DNA of 64,000 bases from Nitrosomonadales bacterium (lineage in GTDB: Bacteria; Pseudomonadota; Gammaproteobacteria; Burkholderiales; Gallionellaceae): the NCBI GenBank assembly GCA_016213335.1, contig JACRAQ010000130.1:1-64000 (forward strand). The letters are read 5' to 3'. Shown here piece after piece: positions 14,958 through 29,863 of the stretch; the first letter of the stretch is position 1; the number at the start of each line of letters is the position of its first letter. The translations under genes and the position numbers were made by a program. A model generated the notes under the pieces. It worked only from the letters and a program-made list of their open reading frames with translations, was not told the DNA's origin and did not search any database.

Positions 14958-15566
14958 TTAAAACAACTCCACCTCGCCCTGCACGTCTGCCAGCTTGATG
15001 CGCGACTTGTATTCCTGCTCGCGCTCGACGATGGTGTCGTTATGCACATTGCGCAACTGCTTCACCTTCACCTTGCCGCTGCTCGGGAAAAAATAGACTT
15101 TGCGCGGATAAATATCGAGCAAATCCTGTGCCACGACCGAAATTTTTTCGTTGCGCAGATAGCCGATGGCGAAATTGGCGTTGCGCTCCCCCACATTCGC
15201 CACAGTGAAGCCGCGCAGCACGTTGCCGCCCCCGAACAGCTTGGCTTCCAGATTGCCGCGCCTGGCGCCCATCTTGAGCAGCTCGTTGATCAGCTTCTCC
15301 ATGGCGTACACGCCGTAGCGCGCCGAACTGCTCAGCAGATCACCGCTTTCGCCGGGCAGCATGAAATGGTTCATGCCGCCGATGCCGTTGGTGCGGTCGC
15401 GGATGCACGCCGCGACACACGATCCCAGCACCGTCACCAGCACCATGTCGCGCGCCGTCACGTAATATTCTCCGGGCAACAGCTTGGCCGCCTCAATATC
15501 GAAGTATTTGTCGTAATACAGGTTGGGGGACAGGACTTCTTCGTAGTCCGCATCGTTTTTTGTCAT
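14958..15566 (-). CDS. cheD: Chemoreceptor glutamine deamidase CheD
   Basis: The 202-residue product carries the CheD core with catalytic Cys50 in VLGSCVAAC and His67 in GGMNHFML. CheD deamidates specific glutamines of MCPs and in several species interacts with CheC. No cheC is seen here. The protein ends in GEVELF, the same six residues that end the MCP-like protein at 23.5-24.7 kb. Only six bases separate it from cheR upstream. Confidence 0.95.
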   Translation of the reverse strand: MTKNDADYEEVLSPNLYYDKYFDIEAAKLLPGEYYVTARDMVLVTVLGSCVAACIRDRTNGIGGMNHFMLPGESGDLLSSSARYGVYAMEKLINELLKMGARRGNLEAKLFGGGNVLRGFTVANVGERNANFAIGYLRNEKISVVAQDLLDIYPRKVYFFPSSGKVKVKQLRNVHNDTIVEREQEYKSRIKLADVQGEVELF

Positions 15567-18958: not shown

Positions 18959-20866
18959 TTACGCTTCGTGGCTTGCCCGCACCAGGGCGGCCGCGTCCAG
19001 TATCAGCGCCACCTTGCCGTCCCCCATGATGGTCGCGCCGGAAATGTAGGGGACTTTGCGATAATTCGATTCCAGGCTCTTGAGCACGACCTGGTGCTGG
19101 CCCATCAGCTCGTCCACGAACAGCGCGATTTTCTTGCTATCCGCTTCCAGCAGCACCAGAATGCCCCGCTCCGGCTGCTGGATCGCGCCCTCAATGCCGA
19201 ACATCTTGTGCAGCGCAATGATCGTCAGATATTGGCCGCGCACGTGCAGCAGGTGTTCCTCCCCGCCGCTCGCCGTTTTGATATCGGCGGCAGCGCCCGG
19301 CAACGACTCGATGATTGCATTCAGCGGGATGATATAAGTCTGATGGCCGGACGTAACCGAAAGCCCGTCCAGGATCGCCAGCGTCAACGGCAGGCGCACG
19401 ATGACGCGCGTGCCGCAGCCTTCCACCGAGTCAAGCTCGACGCGGCCTCCAAGCTCGGTAATGTTGCGCCTGACCACGTCCATGCCCACGCCGCGCCCGG
19501 AAACATCGGTTACCACCTCGGCGGTGGAAAAGCCCGGTTCCATGATCAGCGCCCAGACTTCCTGGTCGGACATGTCGTCGCGTACCGGCATGCCGCGCTC
19601 TTTTGCTTTTTGCAGAATCTTGCCGCGATTCAAGCCGCCGCCATCGTCAGACACTTCGATCACCACGTTGCCGCCCTGATGATAGGCCTTGAGGGTGAGC
19701 GTGCCGCATGGGCTCTTGCCTGCCTCAATGCGCTTCTCGGGCGACTCGATGCCATGATCCAGGCTGTTGCGCACCAGGTGCGTCATCGGGTCGGAAATCT
19801 TCTCGATCAGGCTCTTGTCCAGCTCGGTGGTTTCGCCTATCGTCTTCATCTCCACCTGTTTTCCCAGCTTGCCCGCGAGATCGCGCACCATGCGCGGGAA
19901 ACGGCTGAACACGAAGGAAATCGGCATCATGCGGATGGACATCACCGCTTCCTGCATGTCGCGCGTGTTGCGCTCGAGCTGGTACAGGCTGCGTTGCAGG
20001 CTTTCGTTGCCCGCGCACTCCGCTCCCTGCGCGGCTTGCGCCAGCATGGCCTGGGTAATGACCAGCTCGCCCATGAGGTTGATCAACTGATCAACTTTTT
20101 CGACCCCCACCCGTATGGATGATGCCTCCGCCTGCGATGTGCTCGCTTTGTCGCTGGCCCGCCTTCCTCCGCTGTCGCTGGCGCGCCTGCCCGTATCCGC
20201 AGCCGGAATAGCTTGAAGGCTGGATGCGGTGCGCTCCGGCGCCTGCGCGAGTGGCTGCGCCAGCGCCCCATCAAAAAAACCGTACCCCTGCTCTTGCTCG
20301 CGCTGCGCCTGCTCCACGGGAGTTTCGGTAAAGAATCCGTATCCTGGATCAGCCTCCTCGCTTCCGGCAGGAGCAGATTGAAGACTGGGAGATGGGGCAG
20401 GCACGTCATCGAAAAACCCATAGCCGGGGTCTTCTGTAACAACAGCTTGTGCCTGGGCGTGATCTTCGGCCACTTGCTGTGCTGAAGTCAGCCGCTCCAG
20501 TTTCTCGCACACCTCGCGCACCACCTCTGCATCCACTTCGCCCTCGCCGCGGTGTACGGCCAGTTGCATGGAAATGACATCACCCGCTTCGAGGAAGGTG
20601 TTGACCATTTCATCGGTCAGGGTCATTTCCTGCTTGCGCAGCTTGTCGAGCAGCGTTTCGAGGATGTGCGTCACTTCGGTCATGTCACCGAAACCGAAGG
20701 TCCCCGCCCCACCCTTGACGGAATGGGCCGCGCGAAAAATCGCATTGAGGTCGTCCATGGCGGGAGCGGCAACATCCAGCCCGAGCAGCAATGCCTCCAT
20801 CTCTCTGAGATGCTCGGCGGCTTCCTCGAAGAAAATTTGGTGAAACTGGCTCAGGTCTATGCTCAT
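18959..20866 (-). CDS. cheA: Chemotaxis histidine kinase CheA (first copy)
   Basis: The 635-residue kinase has an HPt domain with His48 in AAHSVKGGAGTFGFG, a ~110-residue linker, a dimerisation domain, an HATPase domain (LVRNSLDHGIESP, GRGVGMDVV) and a CheW-like domain at the end. The linker has no recognisable CheY-binding P2 domain. Instead it carries three GYGFF motifs at residues 148-152, 175-179 and 194-198, plus a doubled RRASD. It should phosphorylate CheY and CheB. It sits between cheY and cheW, with a palindromic repeat in the cheA-cheY spacer. Confidence 0.96.
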   Translation of the reverse strand: MSIDLSQFHQIFFEEAAEHLREMEALLLGLDVAAPAMDDLNAIFRAAHSVKGGAGTFGFGDMTEVTHILETLLDKLRKQEMTLTDEMVNTFLEAGDVISMQLAVHRGEGEVDAEVVREVCEKLERLTSAQQVAEDHAQAQAVVTEDPGYGFFDDVPAPSPSLQSAPAGSEEADPGYGFFTETPVEQAQREQEQGYGFFDGALAQPLAQAPERTASSLQAIPAADTGRRASDSGGRRASDKASTSQAEASSIRVGVEKVDQLINLMGELVITQAMLAQAAQGAECAGNESLQRSLYQLERNTRDMQEAVMSIRMMPISFVFSRFPRMVRDLAGKLGKQVEMKTIGETTELDKSLIEKISDPMTHLVRNSLDHGIESPEKRIEAGKSPCGTLTLKAYHQGGNVVIEVSDDGGGLNRGKILQKAKERGMPVRDDMSDQEVWALIMEPGFSTAEVVTDVSGRGVGMDVVRRNITELGGRVELDSVEGCGTRVIVRLPLTLAILDGLSVTSGHQTYIIPLNAIIESLPGAAADIKTASGGEEHLLHVRGQYLTIIALHKMFGIEGAIQQPERGILVLLEADSKKIALFVDELMGQHQVVLKSLESNYRKVPYISGATIMGDGKVALILDAAALVRASHEA

Positions 20867-20872
20867 GATATT

Positions 20873-20971
20873 AGCTCGTAGCCTGTAGCTGTTAGCATGT
20901 GGCTTTCCAAGGTGCGCGCTTCGCGCGCGGCATCAAAAAGCAACGAGCCACAGGCTACCCGCCGCTGGCTA
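20873..20971. repeat. GTAGC-type palindromic repeat between cheA and cheY
   Basis: Arms built from short tandem units (AGCTCGTAGCCTGTAGC... and ...GCCACAGGCTACC) flank a central hairpin. Its 23-base core, containing GCGCGCTTCGCGCGC, is identical to that of the repeat at 50901-51002. The right arm overlaps the cheY stop codon. It could modulate expression across the operon. Confidence 0.75.
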
Positions 20972-21334
20972 TCCAATCACTTTCTTCGTTACTTCCAGCA
21001 GCTTCTGCGGATCGAACGGTTTGACCAGCCAGCCGGTCGCACCCGCCGCCTTGCCCTGCGCCTTCATGGCATCGCCGGATTCGGTGGTCAGCATCAGGAT
21101 CGGCACGCTCCGGTAAGCGGGAAGGGCGCGCAGGTTCTTGATGAGGGTCAGCCCGTCCATGCGCGGCATATTCTGGTCAGTCAGCACCATATCCACCGTC
21201 TTGGCCTTGGCTTTTTCCAACCCTTCCTGGCCGTCCGCTGCCTCGATAACTTCATACCCCGCGCCCTTGAGGGTAAAGGACACCATCTGCCGGATGGAGC
21301 TGGAGTCATCCACGCTGAGAATAGTTTTTGCCAT
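20969..21334 (-). CDS. cheY: Chemotaxis response regulator CheY (first copy)
   Basis: The 121-residue stand-alone receiver domain carries phosphoacceptor Asp53 in LTDQNMPRMDG and the conserved Lys in VKPFD. The pattern MAKTILSVDDSSSIRQ is typical of CheY proteins encoded next to cheA in betaproteobacteria. It differs clearly from the enterobacterial-type CheY at 27.4 kb and may bind a different target or act as a phosphate sink. Confidence 0.93.
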   Translation of the reverse strand: MAKTILSVDDSSSIRQMVSFTLKGAGYEVIEAADGQEGLEKAKAKTVDMVLTDQNMPRMDGLTLIKNLRALPAYRSVPILMLTTESGDAMKAQGKAAGATGWLVKPFDPQKLLEVTKKVIG

Positions 21335-21403: not shown

Positions 21404-22891
21404 CTAATTTTCGCCATGTTTCTCCGTTATCATCGCATCAATCAGGTTGATCACTTCGCTGCTGGCTTGCTCGCTCTTTTCCAGCTCGCTCACCAGCTCG
21501 TTGCGCAGATCCGCATTTTTCTCCCAGTCCCCCCTGGAAAGCTGCACGGAACGGTGAACGCAGGAGTGAACTCCGGCATGGGATTTTTCCAGCCGCACAT
21601 AAGCCGCCGTCTTGCCGAATAGCTCTTTCCCGGCGCCCTCGTACCACTTGCCGAGCCGGCAGTTGTGGTGGTCGGATTTGACCGCCGCCGCTTCTTCGCC
21701 GCCCCCGGCTTTTTCCACCGCCATGTAGGCGTTTTGCATGTAAACAATGTGATCCATCTTGACCAGCGAGCCGAAAGAGCGGTCTTTGGTTCGGGATACC
21801 CGGTGGATGGTTTTTTCCGCCGACTGCGCGAATTCCGAAAAGCTTGCCCGGAAACTGTTCATCTGCGCGTTCACGTTGACTGTCAGGTCATTGGCCACAC
21901 CGGTTTCCTTGACCATGAGCTCCACCTGGTTTTTGAAGCGCCCGACGGTTGCCTCGATATCCACCGTGGCGGTCTTGGTGCGTTCCGCGAGCTTGCGCAC
22001 TTCGTCCGCCACCACGGCGAACCCGCGCCCGGACTCGCCCGCCCGCGCAGCCTCGATGGCGGCATTTAACGCGAGCAGGTTGGTCTGGTCGGCAATCTCG
22101 GCGATGATGTGAACCGCTGCGTTGATCTCCGCGCTTTCGCTTCCCAGCGCCTGTGCTGCCTGCGCCATCTCCTGGACGCGGCCGGTCATGACAGTAAGGT
22201 CTTCGCTGATGCGGTTTGCCGCCACCAGGCTAGTTTCGGCGCCTTCCCGGTTCGACTGGGCAATCTGTTCCACCCCGTCCATTTCGCCGCTGATGCTCAC
22301 CAGGTCCTGCTGGTTCAACTTGAGCTTGTTCAGGAGATTCTTGGTATTCATTGAATGGAGGCGGAAAGCCAGCTCGTTCCGGGTAATGAACTGGCTGTTT
22401 TCCTCCATCGCCTGGATGGACAGGTTGACCTTTTCCAGCGACTCCGCGAACTGGCCGGGCAAACCACCCGGGATGGCGCGCCGGTAATACTTGCCTTCCG
22501 ATACCAGCCGGAAGCAGGTGTTGACCTCCTTGAAATACATTTCGATCATGTCGAGAAACTCGTTTAACTCCCAAGCCGCCAGGCCCACCTCGCCCAGCCC
22601 GACCGTATCCGTGACGCGATGATGGAGCTGGCCTTTGCAGGAATCCCGCAACACGCCTTGCATGCGCATTACCGTTTCGAGCGGCCTGCGGAAACTGGCC
22701 CAGGCAAAATAAGAAAAAGCGGCTGCCATCAAAGGAAACACCCAATCCGACCACTCGAAACCGTGCTGGTAGGTGACCAGGCCCGCCAGCAAGCAGGTGA
22801 TAAGCGGGAACACCACATAAACCGCAACCAGCTGGCTGCTGATGGACGGGATATGGCGGCTGACGTTGCTGCGCATTATTGGAGTAAGCAT
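21404..22891 (-). CDS. MCP with C-terminal zinc-binding CZB domain (Aer-like, no PAS)
   Basis: The 495-residue transducer has two membrane helices (about 18-40 and 48-67) with almost no periplasmic loop, a HAMP-like region, the MCP hairpin ([17 protein letters not shown]) and a C-terminal CZB domain. The likely Zn ligands are His381, Cys411, His438 and His442, with the signature [15 protein letters not shown] chemoreceptors are known to sense oxidants or zinc. The ATG at 22891 follows GAGGTGCGG and lies 10 bases after the stop of a PAS-protein gene. The two genes together look like one aerotaxis receptor split in two. Confidence 0.92.
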
Positions 22892-22901
22892 GATCCGCAC
22901 C

Positions 22902-23420
22902 TCACAGCCCAAGGATGAAACGATCATAGGTGGTCCCCAGGCTTTTCAGCTTGCCCGTGAGCAGAGCGACGGACACCTCCACCGCCTTGGCCGGCCCCGC
23001 CTGGCGCTCTGCTTCCAGCATCTCCCGGTAAATGGGCTGGATCGCCGCCACGGCGGAAGGTTTGGGTTTGCGCCTGACCGAGAAATAGCCCACCACCTGG
23101 CCTCGCTCGTCCATGTCGGGCGTGACATTGGCGAATACCCAGTAGAAGTGGCCCTCGGAGGTCATGTTTTTCACGTAAGCGAAGAATTCCTGCTTGGCCC
23201 CGATCGTGTCCCACAGCAACTTGAATGCACCGCGTGGCATGTCCGGGTGGCGGACGATGTTGTGTTGCTGGTGCAGCAAGCCTTTTTCCGGATAGTTCGC
23301 AATCCTCATGAACACCCGGTTCGCGTAAGTGATACGGCCTTTCAGATCGGTTTTCGAGACGATGATATCGCCGTCATCCAATATGACCTCTTGCTGGGTC
23401 GGTGTTATTTTTGCTTTCAT
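22902..23420 (-). CDS. Stand-alone Aer-like PAS sensor protein
   Basis: The 172-residue soluble protein is a PAS domain with the Aer hallmark [20 protein letters not shown] and [11 protein letters not shown], then ~50 helical residues. In Aer the equivalent domain binds FAD and reports redox state to a HAMP-MCP unit. Here no HAMP or signalling domain follows. Those parts are encoded by the next gene, whose start is 10 bases away. Non-covalent interaction of the two products is inferred. Confidence 0.92.
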
Positions 23421-23451: not shown

Positions 23452-24663
23452 TCAAAACAGCTCGACCTCACCGCTGCTCATTTTTTCCTGCCGTACCGGG
23501 TTGCGCTGGCTGACCTGATCTATGCGGCCGAACAAGTTTGAGATTTCCTGGCGCACCACCGCAGTTTCACCGGCCGATGCAAACCTGCCTTGCTGCTCTT
23601 CCTGAGCCAGCTCGCCTATCCGCCGCCACGCGTCCTGAATGCTGGAAAGGCGCAGCTTGGAGTGCTGCAGCAACTGGTTGACCATGTCCTGGAATTGCAG
23701 CGAAGTGACGGCGTTGCCAACCACTTCGTCCACCTTGCCGGAGATCTCGTCCTGCTTGGCGATCACTTCGGCCATGCTCCGGTTGGCTTGCTGGATGCGG
23801 TTCATGACCGCATCGAGGCGGTTCTTGGATTGCAGGGCAAAATTCATGTCCAGCGAAGCCATCAGGCTGATGGATTGCTCCATGTTCCTGATGGAGCTAT
23901 ATGCCTGATTGATATTGCTGCGGATCAGCTCGCTGAAATGCCCGGAACGCATGGACAGCTTGCGCACCTCGTCCGCCACCACCGCGAAGCCGCGCCCCTG
24001 CTCCCCCGCGCGAGCAGCCTCGATGGCCGCATTGAGGGCCAGCAGGTTGGTTTGCTTGGAAATGGCCTCCATCTCTCCCAGCACATTCAGGATGCCTGCC
24101 ACCTGCCTGCTGATCTCATCCACTTTCTCGACCAGCTCCATACCCACCTTGCTGTTGTCAACCACGCCGCTCACCATGTCCCTCAAGGACCCGGAGGCTT
24201 CGCTCAGGGAAAACTCGATGGAAAAACTATCTTCCTCATCGCGCTTGCGCGATACCGACATGGCCGTATCGCGCTGTTCCTGTATCAGGCGATGCATGCC
24301 GTCAAAACTGGCGAGCAGCTTCCCGATCGCATCGTTCAGCAGGGATTGCGCCTGCCCGAGATCATCGCTTGCGCCGTCAAAATGGGTGGAAAATTCCGGG
24401 TGGGTTTGCAGCAGAATGCTGTCTACGCCGTGCTCTACTCCGGTGGCGGATGGCCCGGAAGAAGCGGCTGGCTCCGTCCGCGCGGCGCGCTGCTGGCCGG
24501 AACAGGCCAGCCATACCAGGAAGGCCGCCGCTGCCGTGATGGCGGCATGCAGCCCGGAAGCCAGCCAGCCCGGCCCCAGCGCGGACGCGCCCCAGTGCAA
24601 TGCAATTGCACCCAGCAACGTGCCGGTCAGGAACAATGCGACAGGTGTGCCATGTTTATTCAT
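23452..24663 (-). CDS. MCP-like protein with CheZ-type D-x3-Q motif and GEVELF tail
   Basis: The 403-residue product has two N-terminal membrane helices (about 8-28 and 37-55) and no periplasmic sensor. Its MCP signalling hairpin ([19 protein letters not shown], 200-218) continues as [16 protein letters not shown] helical region with [14 protein letters not shown] at 321-334 follows. Asp326-x3-Gln330 matches the spacing of the CheZ active-site pair in DFQDLTGQ. The last residues GEVELF repeat the tail of CheD. It may couple receptor signalling to CheY-P dephosphorylation, but this is inference. The ATG at 24663 follows GAGGA. Confidence 0.8.
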
Positions 24664-24693: not shown

Positions 24694-26541
24694 TCATCCG
24701 CGCAGATCGCTCAACAGTTCCTTGATGTCCAGGATCAGCACGATATCGCCTTCGCTGGACATGGTGGCGCCCGCCACTCCCTTGGGCCGGAAGGTGTCCA
24801 GCGACTTGATCACCACGTCGTCGTGGCCGACAAAACCGTCCACGGAAAGGATGAAGCTGTTTGCGCCCACCTGCATCAGCACACCGACTTCCGGCGGCTG
24901 CGGCTGCTCCCACCCGATCAGCCCGGACAGCGGCAACACCGGCAGCACCTCGCCGCGCACGACCATGGTGGCCTTACCGGAAATCTGCTGCAGCTCGCTC
25001 GTCGTGATCGAGAGGATTTCGCGCACCATGGAAAGCGGCACGGCAAACGACTGGCTGCCGAGGCGCAGCAGCAACACCGGGAGAATGGCCAAGGTGAGCG
25101 GCAGCGCCATGGTGAATTCGCTGCCCTTGCCTGGGATGGAGACGATGCCGATGGTGCCGTTCAGTTTCTGGATGTTGGTCTTCACCACGTCCATGCCGAC
25201 GCCGCGCCCGGAAACGCTGGAAATCTGGTCGCTGGTCGAAAACCCCGGCAGCATGATGAGCTCCAGGCTTTGTTCGTCGTTCAGGCTGCTCGCCGCCTCC
25301 TTGCTGATGATCCCTTTCTCGACGGCCTTGTTGCGAATCACTTCCGGGCGCATGCCCTTGCCGTCGTCGCTGATGCTGATAATGACGTGGTCGCCCTCCT
25401 GACGCGCCCCGAGATGCACCGTGCTCTTCGCCGGTTTGCCTGCCGCCGCGCGCTGCCCCGGGTTTTCCACACCGTGGTCCACCGCATTACGGATCAGGTG
25501 CACCAGCGGATCGTTCAGGTCCTCGATCATGGTCTTGTCAATTTCGGTTTCTTCGCCGGACAGCACCAGTTCCACATCCTTGCCGAGCTGGCGCGCCAGG
25601 TCGCGCGCCAGGCGCGGGTACTTGTTGAACAACCGCCCGATGGGCTGCATGCGCGTTTTCATCACGGCGTTTTGCAGGTTCACCACCAGCATATCGAGCT
25701 GGCTGACCGACTCGTCCAGCGCCCGCAGCGTGGAAGCCTCCTGGCGCCCTTGCAGAATGTCGGTGCGCAACTGGGTCAGGCGGTTCTTGGTCAGCCCGAT
25801 TTCGCCGGAAAGGTTGAGCACCTGGTCCAGCCGGTCGGTATCCACCCGTATGGTATTGTCCTTGCCTCCGTCGCTATCGCGACGAGTGGCGGGCGGTGCC
25901 TTGCTGCCGGGAACATCGGTGCTGCGGCGCCCGAAGGCGCTGGCCTTGAGCTTTTCCTCGTCAATCAGCTTCGCGGCATCACCTTCCGGTGCGTCCGGAG
26001 GAGCGGCAGCAGGAGCAACCGGTGCAGCGGAGGCAGGATTTTCGCCCACGATGGCCTGATACAATGCGTTCCAATCCGGGCCGGATCCCGGGTTCCGGAG
26101 TGCGGGTTCTGGCTTTGCCGATGGCTGGCTCACGGCTCCCGGTCCCTGCTTGCCTTCCAGCGCGGCGTGCAGCGCAGCGATCAGGTGTGGCGGGGCGGCA
26201 GTCGGCTGCCGGTTTTGTGCCAGCGAACCGAACATGCGCTGCACTTCGCCGGTCGCGGCAAAAATCGTATCCATGATTTCCGTATCGAGAACCAGCTCGC
26301 CGTTGCGCAGCTTGTCGAACAGGTTTTCAGTGAGATGGCAGAGCGTGACCAGTTCCGTGGCATTGAGGAATCCGGCACCGCCCTTGATGGTATGAAAGCC
26401 ACGAAATATGACGTTGAGCAGATCGCGGTCGCCGGGCGACTTCTCCAAATCCATCAGCTTGCTGTCCACATCGGACAGCAGGTCGGTGGCTTCCGTCAGG
26501 AAGTCCTGCATCAATTCTTCCATGCCCGCAAAATCGTTCAT
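24694..26541 (-). CDS. cheA: Chemotaxis histidine kinase CheA (second copy)
   Basis: The 615-residue kinase has an HPt domain with His50 in FRGFHTIKGGAGFLN, a proline- and alanine-rich linker (about 125-265), dimerisation, HATPase (LIRNAVDHGVENP, GRGVGMDVVK) and CheW-like domains. It lacks the GYGFF linker repeats of the other CheA. The ATG at 26541 follows GGAG; the longer frame upstream would run into a repeat. Its neighbours are cheZ and the enterobacterial-type cheY, so it is the better candidate for direct motor control. Confidence 0.95.
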   Translation of the reverse strand: MNDFAGMEELMQDFLTEATDLLSDVDSKLMDLEKSPGDRDLLNVIFRGFHTIKGGAGFLNATELVTLCHLTENLFDKLRNGELVLDTEIMDTIFAATGEVQRMFGSLAQNRQPTAAPPHLIAALHAALEGKQGPGAVSQPSAKPEPALRNPGSGPDWNALYQAIVGENPASAAPVAPAAAPPDAPEGDAAKLIDEEKLKASAFGRRSTDVPGSKAPPATRRDSDGGKDNTIRVDTDRLDQVLNLSGEIGLTKNRLTQLRTDILQGRQEASTLRALDESVSQLDMLVVNLQNAVMKTRMQPIGRLFNKYPRLARDLARQLGKDVELVLSGEETEIDKTMIEDLNDPLVHLIRNAVDHGVENPGQRAAAGKPAKSTVHLGARQEGDHVIISISDDGKGMRPEVIRNKAVEKGIISKEAASSLNDEQSLELIMLPGFSTSDQISSVSGRGVGMDVVKTNIQKLNGTIGIVSIPGKGSEFTMALPLTLAILPVLLLRLGSQSFAVPLSMVREILSITTSELQQISGKATMVVRGEVLPVLPLSGLIGWEQPQPPEVGVLMQVGANSFILSVDGFVGHDDVVIKSLDTFRPKGVAGATMSSEGDIVLILDIKELLSDLRG

Positions 26542-26551
26542 GTTCAACTCC

Positions 26552-26649
26552 AGTCGTAAGTCATGAGACGTAAGACGTAAGCTGGTAGTTGGCGTTGTCG
26601 CTGCGCGGCCTTGGCGGGCAACTGACAACTTACGTCTTACGTCTAAAAA
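26552..26649. repeat. GACGTAAG-type palindromic repeat between cheZ and cheA
   Basis: The left arm (GTCGTAAGTCATGAGACGTAAGA..., period ~8) is complementary to the right arm ACAACTTACGTCTTACGTC, around a GC-rich centre. It has the same layout as the repeats at 20873, 27810 and 50901: short tandem units mirrored about a hairpin. Confidence 0.7.
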
Positions 26650-26655
26650 CTGCCT

Positions 26656-27381
26656 TTAAAACCCCAAACTCTCCAGCAGCTCGTCCACCTGATCCTGGCT
26701 GGTCACCACATCGCTACGCCCCGCCGCATTGACCACCGGCCCGTTCAGCAGCCCGGCAAAAGTATCCGGGTTGGCGGTGGAAGGCGGGTTCTCGACCAGC
26801 AGGTCAACCAATTGTTTTTCCATCTGCTGCGTCACATCCACAATTTTCTTGATGACCTGGCCGGTGAGGTCCTGAAAATCCTGGGCCATCATGATTTCCA
26901 TCAGGTAGGCGTTGGTGGCCTTGGCCTGCTTGGGGACTTCCGCCAGGAAAGCCTGTGTCTGCGCCGCCAGGTTTTTGAACTGCTCGACATCGAGCTGCTT
27001 ATCAAACAGCTTCTGCCATTCTCTGGACAGCCGCTGCGACTCGATTTCGATTTTCTCCACCACCGGCTGAGCCGCATCGGTGGCGTTCAGCACCCGCTCG
27101 GCAGCCTTCTCGGTCAGCGTGGCGATATAATTCAGGCGGTCGCGGGCATCGGGTATCGTGGACGCCGCCTTTTCCAGGTTCTTGTCGTACCCCAGCTCGC
27201 GCAGGGCATCATGCAGCGTGCGCGTCATCTGTCCGATCTTGTTGATCACCTTGTCCGCCGCCTTGTCTCCCTCTTCGGCAGGCCTGGCGAGCGCCGCTTC
27301 GTCGTTGCTCGCCGCAACGATGCTGTCGAACAGTGCTTCCAGGTCTTCTGAATCCTGCGTTGCATCCGCTTTGTTAGCCAT
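26656..27381 (-). CDS. cheZ: Protein phosphatase CheZ
   Basis: The 241-residue, almost wholly helical protein carries the CheZ active site AQDFQDLTGQVIKK, with Asp171 and Gln175 matching the E. coli catalytic pair. It also has the C-terminal CheY-binding peptide VDELLESLGF. It dephosphorylates CheY-P to reset the motor signal. The ATG at 27381 follows AGGAGAGG. Its stop lies seven bases before the repeat in the cheZ-cheA spacer. Confidence 0.96.
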   Translation of the reverse strand: MANKADATQDSEDLEALFDSIVAASNDEAALARPAEEGDKAADKVINKIGQMTRTLHDALRELGYDKNLEKAASTIPDARDRLNYIATLTEKAAERVLNATDAAQPVVEKIEIESQRLSREWQKLFDKQLDVEQFKNLAAQTQAFLAEVPKQAKATNAYLMEIMMAQDFQDLTGQVIKKIVDVTQQMEKQLVDLLVENPPSTANPDTFAGLLNGPVVNAAGRSDVVTSQDQVDELLESLGF

Positions 27382-27404
27382 GGCATCCCTCTCCTGGACA
27401 AGCC

Positions 27405-27794
27405 TCACTTGGGCATTTTTTCAAAAATTTTCTTCAGCTTCTCATCCAGCGTGGCGGCGGTGAATGGCTTGACGATATAGCCGCTGGCACCTGCCTGCGC
27501 CGCCTCGATGATGTTTTCTTTCTTCGCTTCGGCCGTCACCATCAGCACCGGCAGATGCTTGAGCGCGGCATCCGCGCGTATCGCCTTGAGCAGCTCGATG
27601 CCGGTCATGTTGGGCATGTTCCAGTCCGTCACCACAAACTCGAAAGCCTCGCCGCGCAGCTTGTTCAGGGCATCCACGCCGTCTTCCGCCTCCTGCACGT
27701 TGGCAAAGCCCAATTCCTTGAGCAGGTTGCGCACGATGCGCCGCATGGTGGAAAAATCATCCACCACCAGAAATTTCATGTTTGTGTCTGCCAC
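27405..27794 (-). CDS. cheY: Chemotaxis response regulator CheY (enterobacterial type)
   Basis: The 129-residue product matches E. coli CheY in length and in segments such as [16 protein letters not shown] and VTDWNMPNM, with Asp57 as the acceptor. A GTG start at 27794 is chosen because GGAGG sits five bases upstream and it gives MADTNMKF, the usual CheY N-terminus. An internal ATG at 27779 has no ribosome site at proper distance. Phosphorylated CheY should bind FliM. The adjacent cheZ supports motor control. Confidence 0.96.
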
Positions 27795-27894: not shown

Positions 27895-28866
27895 TTAAAC
27901 CAGCAGCGGCCGCAAGGTACCCGCCAGCATCCCGCCATCGAACTTCGGCACATAGTGGTCTACCCCCACGCGCTTGCCCATTGCCCGGTTGGCCTCCGAC
28001 GACAGGGACGAGTGCATGACCACCGGTATGCCATCGAAGCGCCGATCCGCCTTGATGTTCTGCGTCAGCACATAGCCGTCCATTTCCGGCATCTCCGCAT
28101 CGAGCAGCACAACCTGGATCTGGTCGTGCAGGCTGGCTCCGCTGTTCTGCGCCGCATCCGCCAGCGCCCTCAGCCGCTCCCAGCCTTCCATGCCGTTGTT
28201 CGCATGCATGTGCTTGACCCCCATCTTGTCCAGCACCTCGCTTATTTTCTTGCGCGCCACGACAGAGTCATCCACGAAAAAGACGCACATTTCATGCCCT
28301 CTTTCCACCTTCTCGACATTGCCCACCACCACTTCGCCAAAAGCGTTGGTGAGTATCTGCTCGACATCCAGTATCGAAACCAGCTTGCCGCTCGGCAATT
28401 CCGTGATGGCGGTGATCACACCCTTGCTGTTCGACAGCATGTCGTCCGCCGAGCGTACCTTGTCCCAGTCCACCCGGATGATGCGATCCACACCCTGCAC
28501 CATGAAGCCCAGGATGTGGCGGCTGTATTCCGTCACCATCATGGTGCTTTCCGAATCCGCCCTTCCGCCGTCCATGTCCAGAAACCTGGCCAGGGACAGC
28601 ACCGGGAGAATGTGGCCACGCAGCGATACGAGCCCCTCCACGCCGCCTGGCATGTTGGGCGTCTTGGTGATCGGCATCGCACGGCACACTTCCCTGACCT
28701 TGAATACATTGATACCAAACGTTTCCTGTGTGCCCAGGGAGAACAACAGGATCTCCATCTTGTTGGAACCGGCCAAACCGGTTCTCGCATCCACCGTATC
28801 AAGCAGGTCGCCGCCATTTTCTTCTGCCGCGCCGTCTTGCGGGGATTGATGTTCTGCAAATGACAT
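27895..28866 (-). CDS. cheV: Chemotaxis protein CheV (first copy)
   Basis: The 323-residue protein joins a CheW-like domain (ILLFSLGTQETFGINVFKVREV, about 35-175) to a receiver domain (about 190-323, acceptor Asp in VLLDAEMPEMDG). CheV proteins couple particular receptors to CheA and dampen signalling when phosphorylated. It lies next to a second cheV, 31 bases downstream of it. Confidence 0.95.
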   Translation of the reverse strand: MSFAEHQSPQDGAAEENGGDLLDTVDARTGLAGSNKMEILLFSLGTQETFGINVFKVREVCRAMPITKTPNMPGGVEGLVSLRGHILPVLSLARFLDMDGGRADSESTMMVTEYSRHILGFMVQGVDRIIRVDWDKVRSADDMLSNSKGVITAITELPSGKLVSILDVEQILTNAFGEVVVGNVEKVERGHEMCVFFVDDSVVARKKISEVLDKMGVKHMHANNGMEGWERLRALADAAQNSGASLHDQIQVVLLDAEMPEMDGYVLTQNIKADRRFDGIPVVMHSSLSSEANRAMGKRVGVDHYVPKFDGGMLAGTLRPLLV

Positions 28867-28897
28867 GATTGCTTCCTTTCCCGGTTCCGTGCGGATT

Positions 28898-29863
28898 TCA
28901 GCCCGCTGCGGGCTGCGCGCTGGCCGCCAGCAGGCGGCCTATGGTCTTCGCCAGTTTCTGCGGCTCGAACTTGGATACGTATTCATCCACGCCGACGGCC
29001 TTGCCTAGCTGCTGGTTGGAGGTGCTGGAAAGCGATGAATGCATCAGTACCGGAATCCCGGCAAAACGCTTGTCCTCCTTGATCTTGCGGGTGAGCATAT
29101 AGCCGTCCATTTCGGGCATTTCGACATCGGTCAGGATGACCTGGATCATGTCGCTCACCCTGGTTCCGGCCGACTCGGCATAGTCGGCTATCCTCCGCAA
29201 TTCCTCCCATGCCTGGCGTCCGTTGATGGCGGAAATATGTTTCACCTGCATCGCCTCCAGGGTGCCGACGATTTGTTTGCGCGCAACCGAGGAATCGTCC
29301 GCAAAAAATACCGTGCGGCCGGAAATGCCGAGCGGCCTGACGCTTTTTATCGCGAGATCATCGTAAAACTGCCCGGTTTCGGCCAGTACCTTTTCCACGT
29401 CCATCATCATTACCAGGCTGCCGTTGGCCAGCTCGGTGACCGCAGTCACCAGTCCGCCCATCTGGGCGTTGAGCATGTCCGGCGGCACCTTCATGGCGGA
29501 CCAGTCGAGGCGCAAAATGGTATCCACCGCCTCGACCAGGAATCCCTGGGTATGGCCGTTGTATTCGGTGACGATCATGATTTCCGGTTTGGCGTCAGTC
29601 TCCACCCCGGTGTATTTCGCCAGATCAATCACCGGCACCAGTATCTTGCGCAGGCTCACCATGCCTTCCACCGCAGCAGGCATTTCCGGCGCGTGGGTAA
29701 TGGGCGGGATGCGCATGACCTCGCGCACCTTGAATACGTTGATCCCGAAAATTTCGCGCCGTCCGCTGCGTTTATCCAGGCCGAGGGTAAACATCAGGAT
29801 TTCCAGCTTGTTGGTTCCCGCCAGCTTGGTGCGCTCGTCTATGTTTCTGAGCAGATCGGACAT
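28898..29863 (-). CDS. cheV: Chemotaxis protein CheV (second copy)
   Basis: The 321-residue CheW-REC protein ([31 protein letters not shown]) is paralogous to the neighbour at 27.9 kb. An eight-residue insertion, DKRSGRRE, lies in the first CheW-like strand region. It sits 18 bases downstream of an MCP gene and may be dedicated to that receptor. Confidence 0.95.
   Translation of the reverse strand: MSDLLRNIDERTKLAGTNKLEILMFTLGLDKRSGRREIFGINVFKVREVMRIPPITHAPEMPAAVEGMVSLRKILVPVIDLAKYTGVETDAKPEIMIVTEYNGHTQGFLVEAVDTILRLDWSAMKVPPDMLNAQMGGLVTAVTELANGSLVMMMDVEKVLAETGQFYDDLAIKSVRPLGISGRTVFFADDSSVARKQIVGTLEAMQVKHISAINGRQAWEELRRIADYAESAGTRVSDMIQVILTDVEMPEMDGYMLTRKIKEDKRFAGIPVLMHSSLSSTSNQQLGKAVGVDEYVSKFEPQKLAKTIGRLLAASAQPAAG

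Follow-up and report, generated by a model that had tools for sequence, protein, structure and literature searches.

Here we present an McpA-like chemotaxis protein, P0001, that is probably a DxxxQ phosphatase dedicated to CheY and carried on a receptor scaffold. Its gene lies in a 64,000-nucleotide stretch of DNA from a Nitrosomonadales bacterium (the window), and the reading is drawn from comparison of sequences. The original prediction, made from the window alone, had pictured a receptor-like scaffold that also removes phosphate from CheY. It overlooked that P0001 belongs to a widespread family, the FQD proteins, that some members lack the receptor tip, and that the C-terminal tail is common to CheD. 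P0001 is probably an enzyme that switches the signal off rather than a sensor, because the Asp-x3-Gln pair persists in the tip-less relatives.

If the phosphatase role is true, it would answer the puzzle of the McpA-like receptors, which are products of F7 clusters, sit in the F6 array, and have no sensor and a conserved tail (PMC7184735). It would also supply a phosphatase for F7 and F9 systems, which possess CheY without CheZ, and the auxiliary phosphatases would gain a member borne on a receptor. The tail common to CheD offers a handle on the role of CheD in bacteria without CheC.

The receptor hairpin and the D-x3-Q motif

P0001 is encoded on the minus strand at 23452-24663, from an ATG at 24663 to a last codon at 23455 and a stop at 23452-23454 (403 amino acids plus stop). 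Its sole Pfam domain is the MCP signalling hairpin at residues 174-316 (PF00015 MCPsignal, E 3e-29; 23716-24144, minus strand), which also gives a receptor-hairpin fold match and whose tip is a 27-residue stretch starting at residue 204. The N-terminus holds two membrane helices in the region of residues 6-62 (24478-24648, minus strand) without a periplasmic domain. The AlphaFold model (mean pLDDT 80) shows these as hydrophobic helices at residues 6-27 and 33-62, forms a long hairpin as expected and has receptor hairpins among its best structural matches. The Pfam scan returned no sensor domain, and the model has two membrane helices only. An N-terminal cytoplasmic helix block at residues 86-122 (24298-24408, minus strand) is retained in the tip-less small proteins (hhalign P 5e-5).

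Past the hairpin, a 14-residue stretch at exactly residues 321-334 bears QFQDMVNQ (residues 323-330; 23674-23697, minus strand), a CheZ-type D-x3-Q motif formed by Asp326 and Gln330. The layout originally described, a hairpin tip followed by this stretch in a protein with two membrane helices and no periplasmic sensor, is confirmed throughout. The protein ends in GEVELF (23455-23472, minus strand), the tail common to CheD. P0001 has no CheR tether of the form xWxxF, as EVELF has Val at the aromatic position, and no Pfam match to a CheC/CheX/FliY-type E-x3-N domain.

Conservation was assessed with a profile of the motif region built to avoid circular selection, reading the aligned residues in all ORFs found; a 188-sequence table chosen by the motif itself was excluded as conservation evidence and replaced by this sample. 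The sample comprises 123 distinct homologous ORFs, of which 120 retain Asp326, 122 Gln330, and 121 each Gln323 and Phe324. The residue preceding Asp326 is variable (Q, E, H, D, A or G). The original prediction had staked itself on conservation of Asp326 and Gln330 among homologues, and it withstood this test. Of the three exceptions, one (L013) is disrupted by stop codons and the other two belong to tandem-duplicated genes. FQDxxxQ is likewise present in 19 of 19 intact P0001 orthologues of relatives, drawn from a whole-protein search of 40 relatives that gave 20 close matches, P0001's own gene included. Gln330 is kept in 74/74 loci chosen by LQFQD, a selection under which Gln330 alone is informative. 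At two loci, L078 (G143:C52) and L060 (G155:C537), FQD genes stand in tandem or are fused into a double protein, and one copy carries a degenerate motif (HYEEVVTQ, RFEESVVP).

The motif also extends to a second subfamily, B, whose tails are of the DITFF kind and whose post-hairpin region is about 16% identical to that of the P0001 subfamily. In the post-hairpin region, the columns that never vary across the two subfamilies are a single Asp, Q-F-Q-D-x3-Q and the final Phe. Ordinary MCPs do not have the D-x3-Q motif. Five members of subfamily B (L021, L022, L023, L025 and L026) share a conserved Y(T/A)(T/M)xE(Q/E)xxxHxG just ahead of the DITFF tail, which may bind a metal or a partner.

That the likeness to CheZ is due to chance is extremely improbable. 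DxxxQ is short, and LQFxD alone also occurs in WD40 designs, but in the tip-bearing loci measured the motif stands a fixed 118 residues past the tip Asn, and family-wide near-invariance refutes chance as regards conservation. The invariant Gln residues could in principle be targets of CheD deamidation or CheR methylation, a proposal that the strong link of the family to CheD would favour. It is very improbable nonetheless: such sites alternate between Q and E, yet Gln330 (122/123) and Gln323 (121/123) are never Glu, the usual receptor Q/E pair is absent, and in the tail Val occupies the position at which the CheR tether requires an aromatic residue. A CheD recognition pattern at the motif was also considered and rejected, as there is no Q/E pair.

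Helical phase computed from the sequence puts Asp326 and Gln330 on the outward face of their helix. With a coiled-coil periodicity of 3.5 residues per turn and the direction of the hydrophobic core fitted on the flanking helix, the angle from that direction is 99 degrees for Asp326 and 150 degrees for Gln330, and Gln323, Phe324, Met327, Leu331 and His334 are likewise outward. An arrangement in which the pair faces the helix core, named beforehand as counting against a phosphatase, is not what was found.

Tip-less relatives and the likeness to CheZ

The profile of the P0001 region also picked up short ORFs from a different family that belongs to the same order. These small proteins (~150-200 aa) have an N-terminal helix, an FQD (or FHD) helix and a tail reading NPVTQxEMDAGS(I/V)(D/E)LF, with nothing of the MCP hairpin left. 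Strong matches are found in 36/60 genomes of their family, and the gene usually lies directly 5' of cheY. By profile alignment their helices correspond to P0001 residues 86-168 (P 5e-5) and 286-403 (P 1.9e-18). Asp and Gln are each present in 30/30 small proteins, under a selection that required neither. Three small proteins compared with Pfam and NCBIfam gave no credible match, and the small proteins had no match to Pfam CheZ (PF04344) at E<=10. A plasmid search for named relatives returned only three distant Vibrio records, and none for the small protein.

A further tip-less form occurs in family f47, where all 15 genomes with an FQD protein have a version of 330-350 aa without a recognisable tip. 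It keeps LQFEDxxxQ and the tail, and adjoins cheB and usually cheD. A tree of 62 sequences sets the two tip-less groups apart (small proteins 100/100 support; few columns, deep forks unresolved). Thus at least two losses of the receptor tip took place, with Asp, Gln and the tail retained. This bears on the reading of P0001 as an ordinary McpA-type chemoreceptor, in which the motif would be no more than a structural feature of the lower bundle. The MCPsignal domain and receptor hairpin fold would agree with it, as would the association of Shewanella oneidensis McpA with CheA3 (PMC9855816). Repeated loss of the tip with the motif kept, the outward residues, the missing sensor and the lack of the motif in ordinary MCPs all speak against it and make it improbable.

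A true CheZ, as originally noted, is encoded in the same cluster with the same motif: it belongs to the F6-type set (26656-27408, minus strand; Pfam CheZ 2.5e-78) and reads AQDFQDLTGQ. In a profile-profile comparison with 31 CheZ sequences, the FQDxxxQ of the family aligns on FQDLTGQ over 65 columns (P 5.7e-5), and the family profile recovers genuine CheZ from other genomes. The controls gave P 0.063 with the motif masked, 0.2 for ordinary MCPs and 0.014 for the reversed profile. Because masking the motif removes the CheZ match, the likeness is that of the motif itself. Common descent with CheZ by way of this match was considered and is unproven for the same reason. The whole P0001 protein has no match to Pfam CheZ (PF04344) at E<=1; as judged by sequence, P0001 is not a member of the CheZ family, and its resemblance appears to lie in the active-site motif.

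In general build, P0001 and CheZ (PF04344) both carry FQD-x3-Q on a long helix, form a helical hairpin and have a conserved C-terminal tail after a flexible stretch. Unlike CheZ, P0001 has its motif 118 residues from a receptor tip and has membrane helices. The tails differ as well, GEVELF in P0001 against DELLESLGF in CheZ, so that the CheZ-type C-terminal CheY-binding peptide (DxLLxxLGF) is absent from P0001. For the small protein, the model shows a simple helical hairpin similar to many unrelated hairpins, with CheZ absent from the list. PDB fold searches with P0001 and with the small protein were uninformative about CheZ, since helical hairpins match everything and CheZ is not listed. Family sequence profiles run against the PDB found no CheZ, only coiled coils and the WD40 designs sharing LQFxD.

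The CheY proteins adjoining FQD proteins keep the phosphorylation site Asp57, together with Thr87 and Lys109. The Asp of CheZ pairs with CheY Lys92. The CheYs adjoining CheZ have Lys91-Lys92 in 8/8 cases, whereas position 92 is Asp in 27/27 beside small proteins and Glu, Ala or Asp in 9/9 beside type B. Lys95 is present in 27/27 beside small proteins and in 8/9 beside type B. Since Lys92 is mostly absent beside FQD proteins, the contact made by Asp must differ from that in CheZ. The original proposal of a receptor-like CheY-P phosphatase is therefore upheld in part: gene context favours the F7-type CheY as substrate, but the lack of a CheZ-family match beyond the motif and the usual absence of CheY Lys92 count against a phosphatase.

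P0001's own genome has neither CheC nor CheX. In other classes of the phylum, genomes with an FQD protein and without CheZ also have CheX or CheC. A role for the FQD protein as the only CheY phosphatase wherever CheZ is missing was dropped for that reason.

Gene neighbourhood and the link to CheD

P0001 stands in a long minus-strand run that, followed from motA, reads motA, motB, MCP, cheV, cheV, cheY, cheZ, cheA, P0001. On the 3' side of P0001 it continues with a PAS protein, a CZB-domain MCP, a second cheY, a second cheA, cheW, MCP, cheR, cheD and cheB. The run can be read as the fusion of an F6-type set (cheY, cheZ, cheA) with an F7-type set (cheY, cheA, cheW, MCP, cheR, cheD, cheB). The F6-type cheA (24694-26628, minus strand) is directly upstream of P0001. 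The F7-type set includes cheA (18959-20866, minus strand) and the cheY that is the proposed substrate, a gene which the original prediction had pointed to at 20.9-21.3 kb and which does exist at 20969-21334 (minus strand). Also on the minus strand are the tandem pair of CheV genes (27895-29863), and the genes for the free-standing PAS protein (22902-23420) and the MCP with a zinc-binding CZB domain (21404-22927). The latter pair resembles a single aerotaxis receptor divided between two genes.

P0001 is thus encoded with an F7-type cheY-cheA-cheW-MCP-cheR-cheD-cheB set whose order matches that in PMC7184735. By this neighbourhood P0001 is assigned as McpA-like, of the PA0180 type. Across genomes, A-type clusters follow the order cheY-cheA-cheW-MCP-cheR-cheD-cheB-FQD, or have FQD near the front. 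B-type clusters follow FQD-cheY-STAS-cheA-MCP-cheW-cheR-cheD-cheB with small variations, and where context is available the type B FQD gene is directly upstream of cheY. The inspected F7/F9-type clusters with an FQD protein have their own cheY and no cheZ.

P0001's own genome has a second FQD protein, of type B with the tail AAEITFF (L077, contig C61, 4332-6571, plus strand). Immediately 3' of its gene come two cheY genes, a STAS gene and cheA, and the cluster's own cheR, cheD and cheB follow later. A 205-aa ORF (L077:12587-13201, plus strand) lying between the cheW and cheR of this cluster has a degenerate receptor tip, NLVALNAMLIAKRSGERSRGFA, and its product looks like a tip-only receptor protein.

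CheD is present in 84 of the 86 genomes with an FQD protein (among 227 CheA genomes; the count ignores phylogeny). In family f47, CheD occurs in 15/15 genomes with an FQD protein versus 0/31 without. This co-occurrence follows in part from operon sharing. The two proteins also share a tail. The cheD of the F7-type set (14958-15566, minus strand) has GEVELF as its end (14958-14978, minus strand), and the codon pattern of the tail occurs just twice in the 2.54 Mb genome, at the ends of P0001 and CheD. A tail of the form (I/V)(D/E)LF is found on CheD in 21/24 A-type clusters versus 0/7 B-type (F9-like) clusters. In the L286 lineage the FQD protein and CheD both end in NIELF, and in the small-protein lineage the small protein and CheD both read GS(V/I)(D/E)LF.

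These links lend some weight to a different account, in which the QFxDxxxQ face is a non-catalytic docking site, for example for CheY or CheD, and P0001 is a scaffold or a CheC-like adaptation sink in a CheD-binding role. The near-obligate co-occurrence with CheD (84/86 genomes; f47 15/15 versus 0/31) and the common tail favour it, as does the finding that CheC of Bacillus subtilis matters more as a CheD-binding protein than as a phosphatase (PMC3513319). A docking face should, however, allow occasional exchanges of Q to E or D to N; Asp and Gln are near-fixed in very divergent sequences, as expected for catalysis. We regard the docking account as rather unlikely, and a catalytic role for the face is preferred.

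Proposed mechanism and comparison with known systems

From the directly established anatomy, conservation, outward phase, gene context, survival of the motif after tip loss and sharing of the tail, we infer the phosphatase activity, dimer geometry, substrate and tail partner as follows. P0001 would be a homologue of McpA-like receptors that no longer senses, a receptor hairpin that dimerises and has a CheZ-type active site, Asp326-x3-Gln330, in the part of the bundle close to the membrane. Its receptor tip, together with the membrane helices, would place it at a receptor array. CheY-P of the F7 type would dock on the conserved outer face (Q323, F324, M327, L331, H334), where Asp326 would orient CheY and Gln330 would position the attacking water, as in CheZ. 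The GEVELF tail may tether a partner common to P0001 and CheD, perhaps CheY-P.

More tentatively, it is possible that in Pseudomonadota a receptor-scaffold D-x3-Q phosphatase (McpA and its kin) replaced CheC as the partner of CheD. The single partner bound by the shared tail would then probably be CheY-P, which would create a CheY-P feedback loop in F7 systems, and the phosphatase would have been freed of the tip in two lineages as an unannotated CheZ-like protein.

McpA-like receptors belong to F7 clusters and have a highly conserved C-terminus to which CheR does not bind (Ortega et al. 2020, PMC7184735), although a 2025 review holds that the E-W/V-E-X-F tail may bind CheR3 instead (PMC11940527). 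F7 sets have cheY, and cheZ is found only in F6 sets (PMC7184735). P0001 resembles CttP/McpA PA0180 (Pseudomonas aeruginosa), VCA1088/Mlp44 (Vibrio cholerae) and McpA (S. oneidensis) in its membrane region and absence of a sensor, and shares with McpA-like receptors a position beside an F7 cluster and a conserved C-terminus with Val in the tether position (PMC7184735, PMC9855816). One locus, L292, taken as PA0180 type by gene order only, reads mcpA-cheY-cheA-cheW-PAS MCP-cheR-cheD-cheB, the order described for stage 2 systems. The literature consulted on McpA-like proteins treats them as receptors and mentions no phosphatase motif, and our literature search found no McpA-CheZ link. The P0001 locus also differs from McpA-like systems by combining F6 and F7 genes in a single run. 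In S. oneidensis, McpA associates with CheA3 of the F6 array and not with its own F7 array, and its deletion has no swimming phenotype (PMC9855816); both findings count against the proposed role. Its overproduction raises swimming (PMC9855816), a gain that would fit a phosphatase and is not proof of one.

Subfamily B resembles the VC1394-type 24H receptor, going by the published description, in its membrane region and in sharing an F9-like cluster with cheY and cheA (PMC7534058). VC1394 itself, from the F9 cluster of V. cholerae, has a topology similar to McpA-like receptors (PMC7534058). Subfamily B differs from P0001 in its DITFF tail and in that CheD of B clusters lacks the tail. In Comamonas testosteroni one CheY, encoded beside cheA, behaves like a phosphate sink (PMC6391922), and a small protein probably adjoins this sink-like CheY. 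The pairing of P0001 with CheD recalls the CheC-CheD systems of B. subtilis and Thermotoga maritima, where a CheY phosphatase is likewise paired with CheD. The fold of CheC and its E-x3-N motif are unrelated, and on the P0001 side it is a D-x3-Q protein with which CheD pairs.
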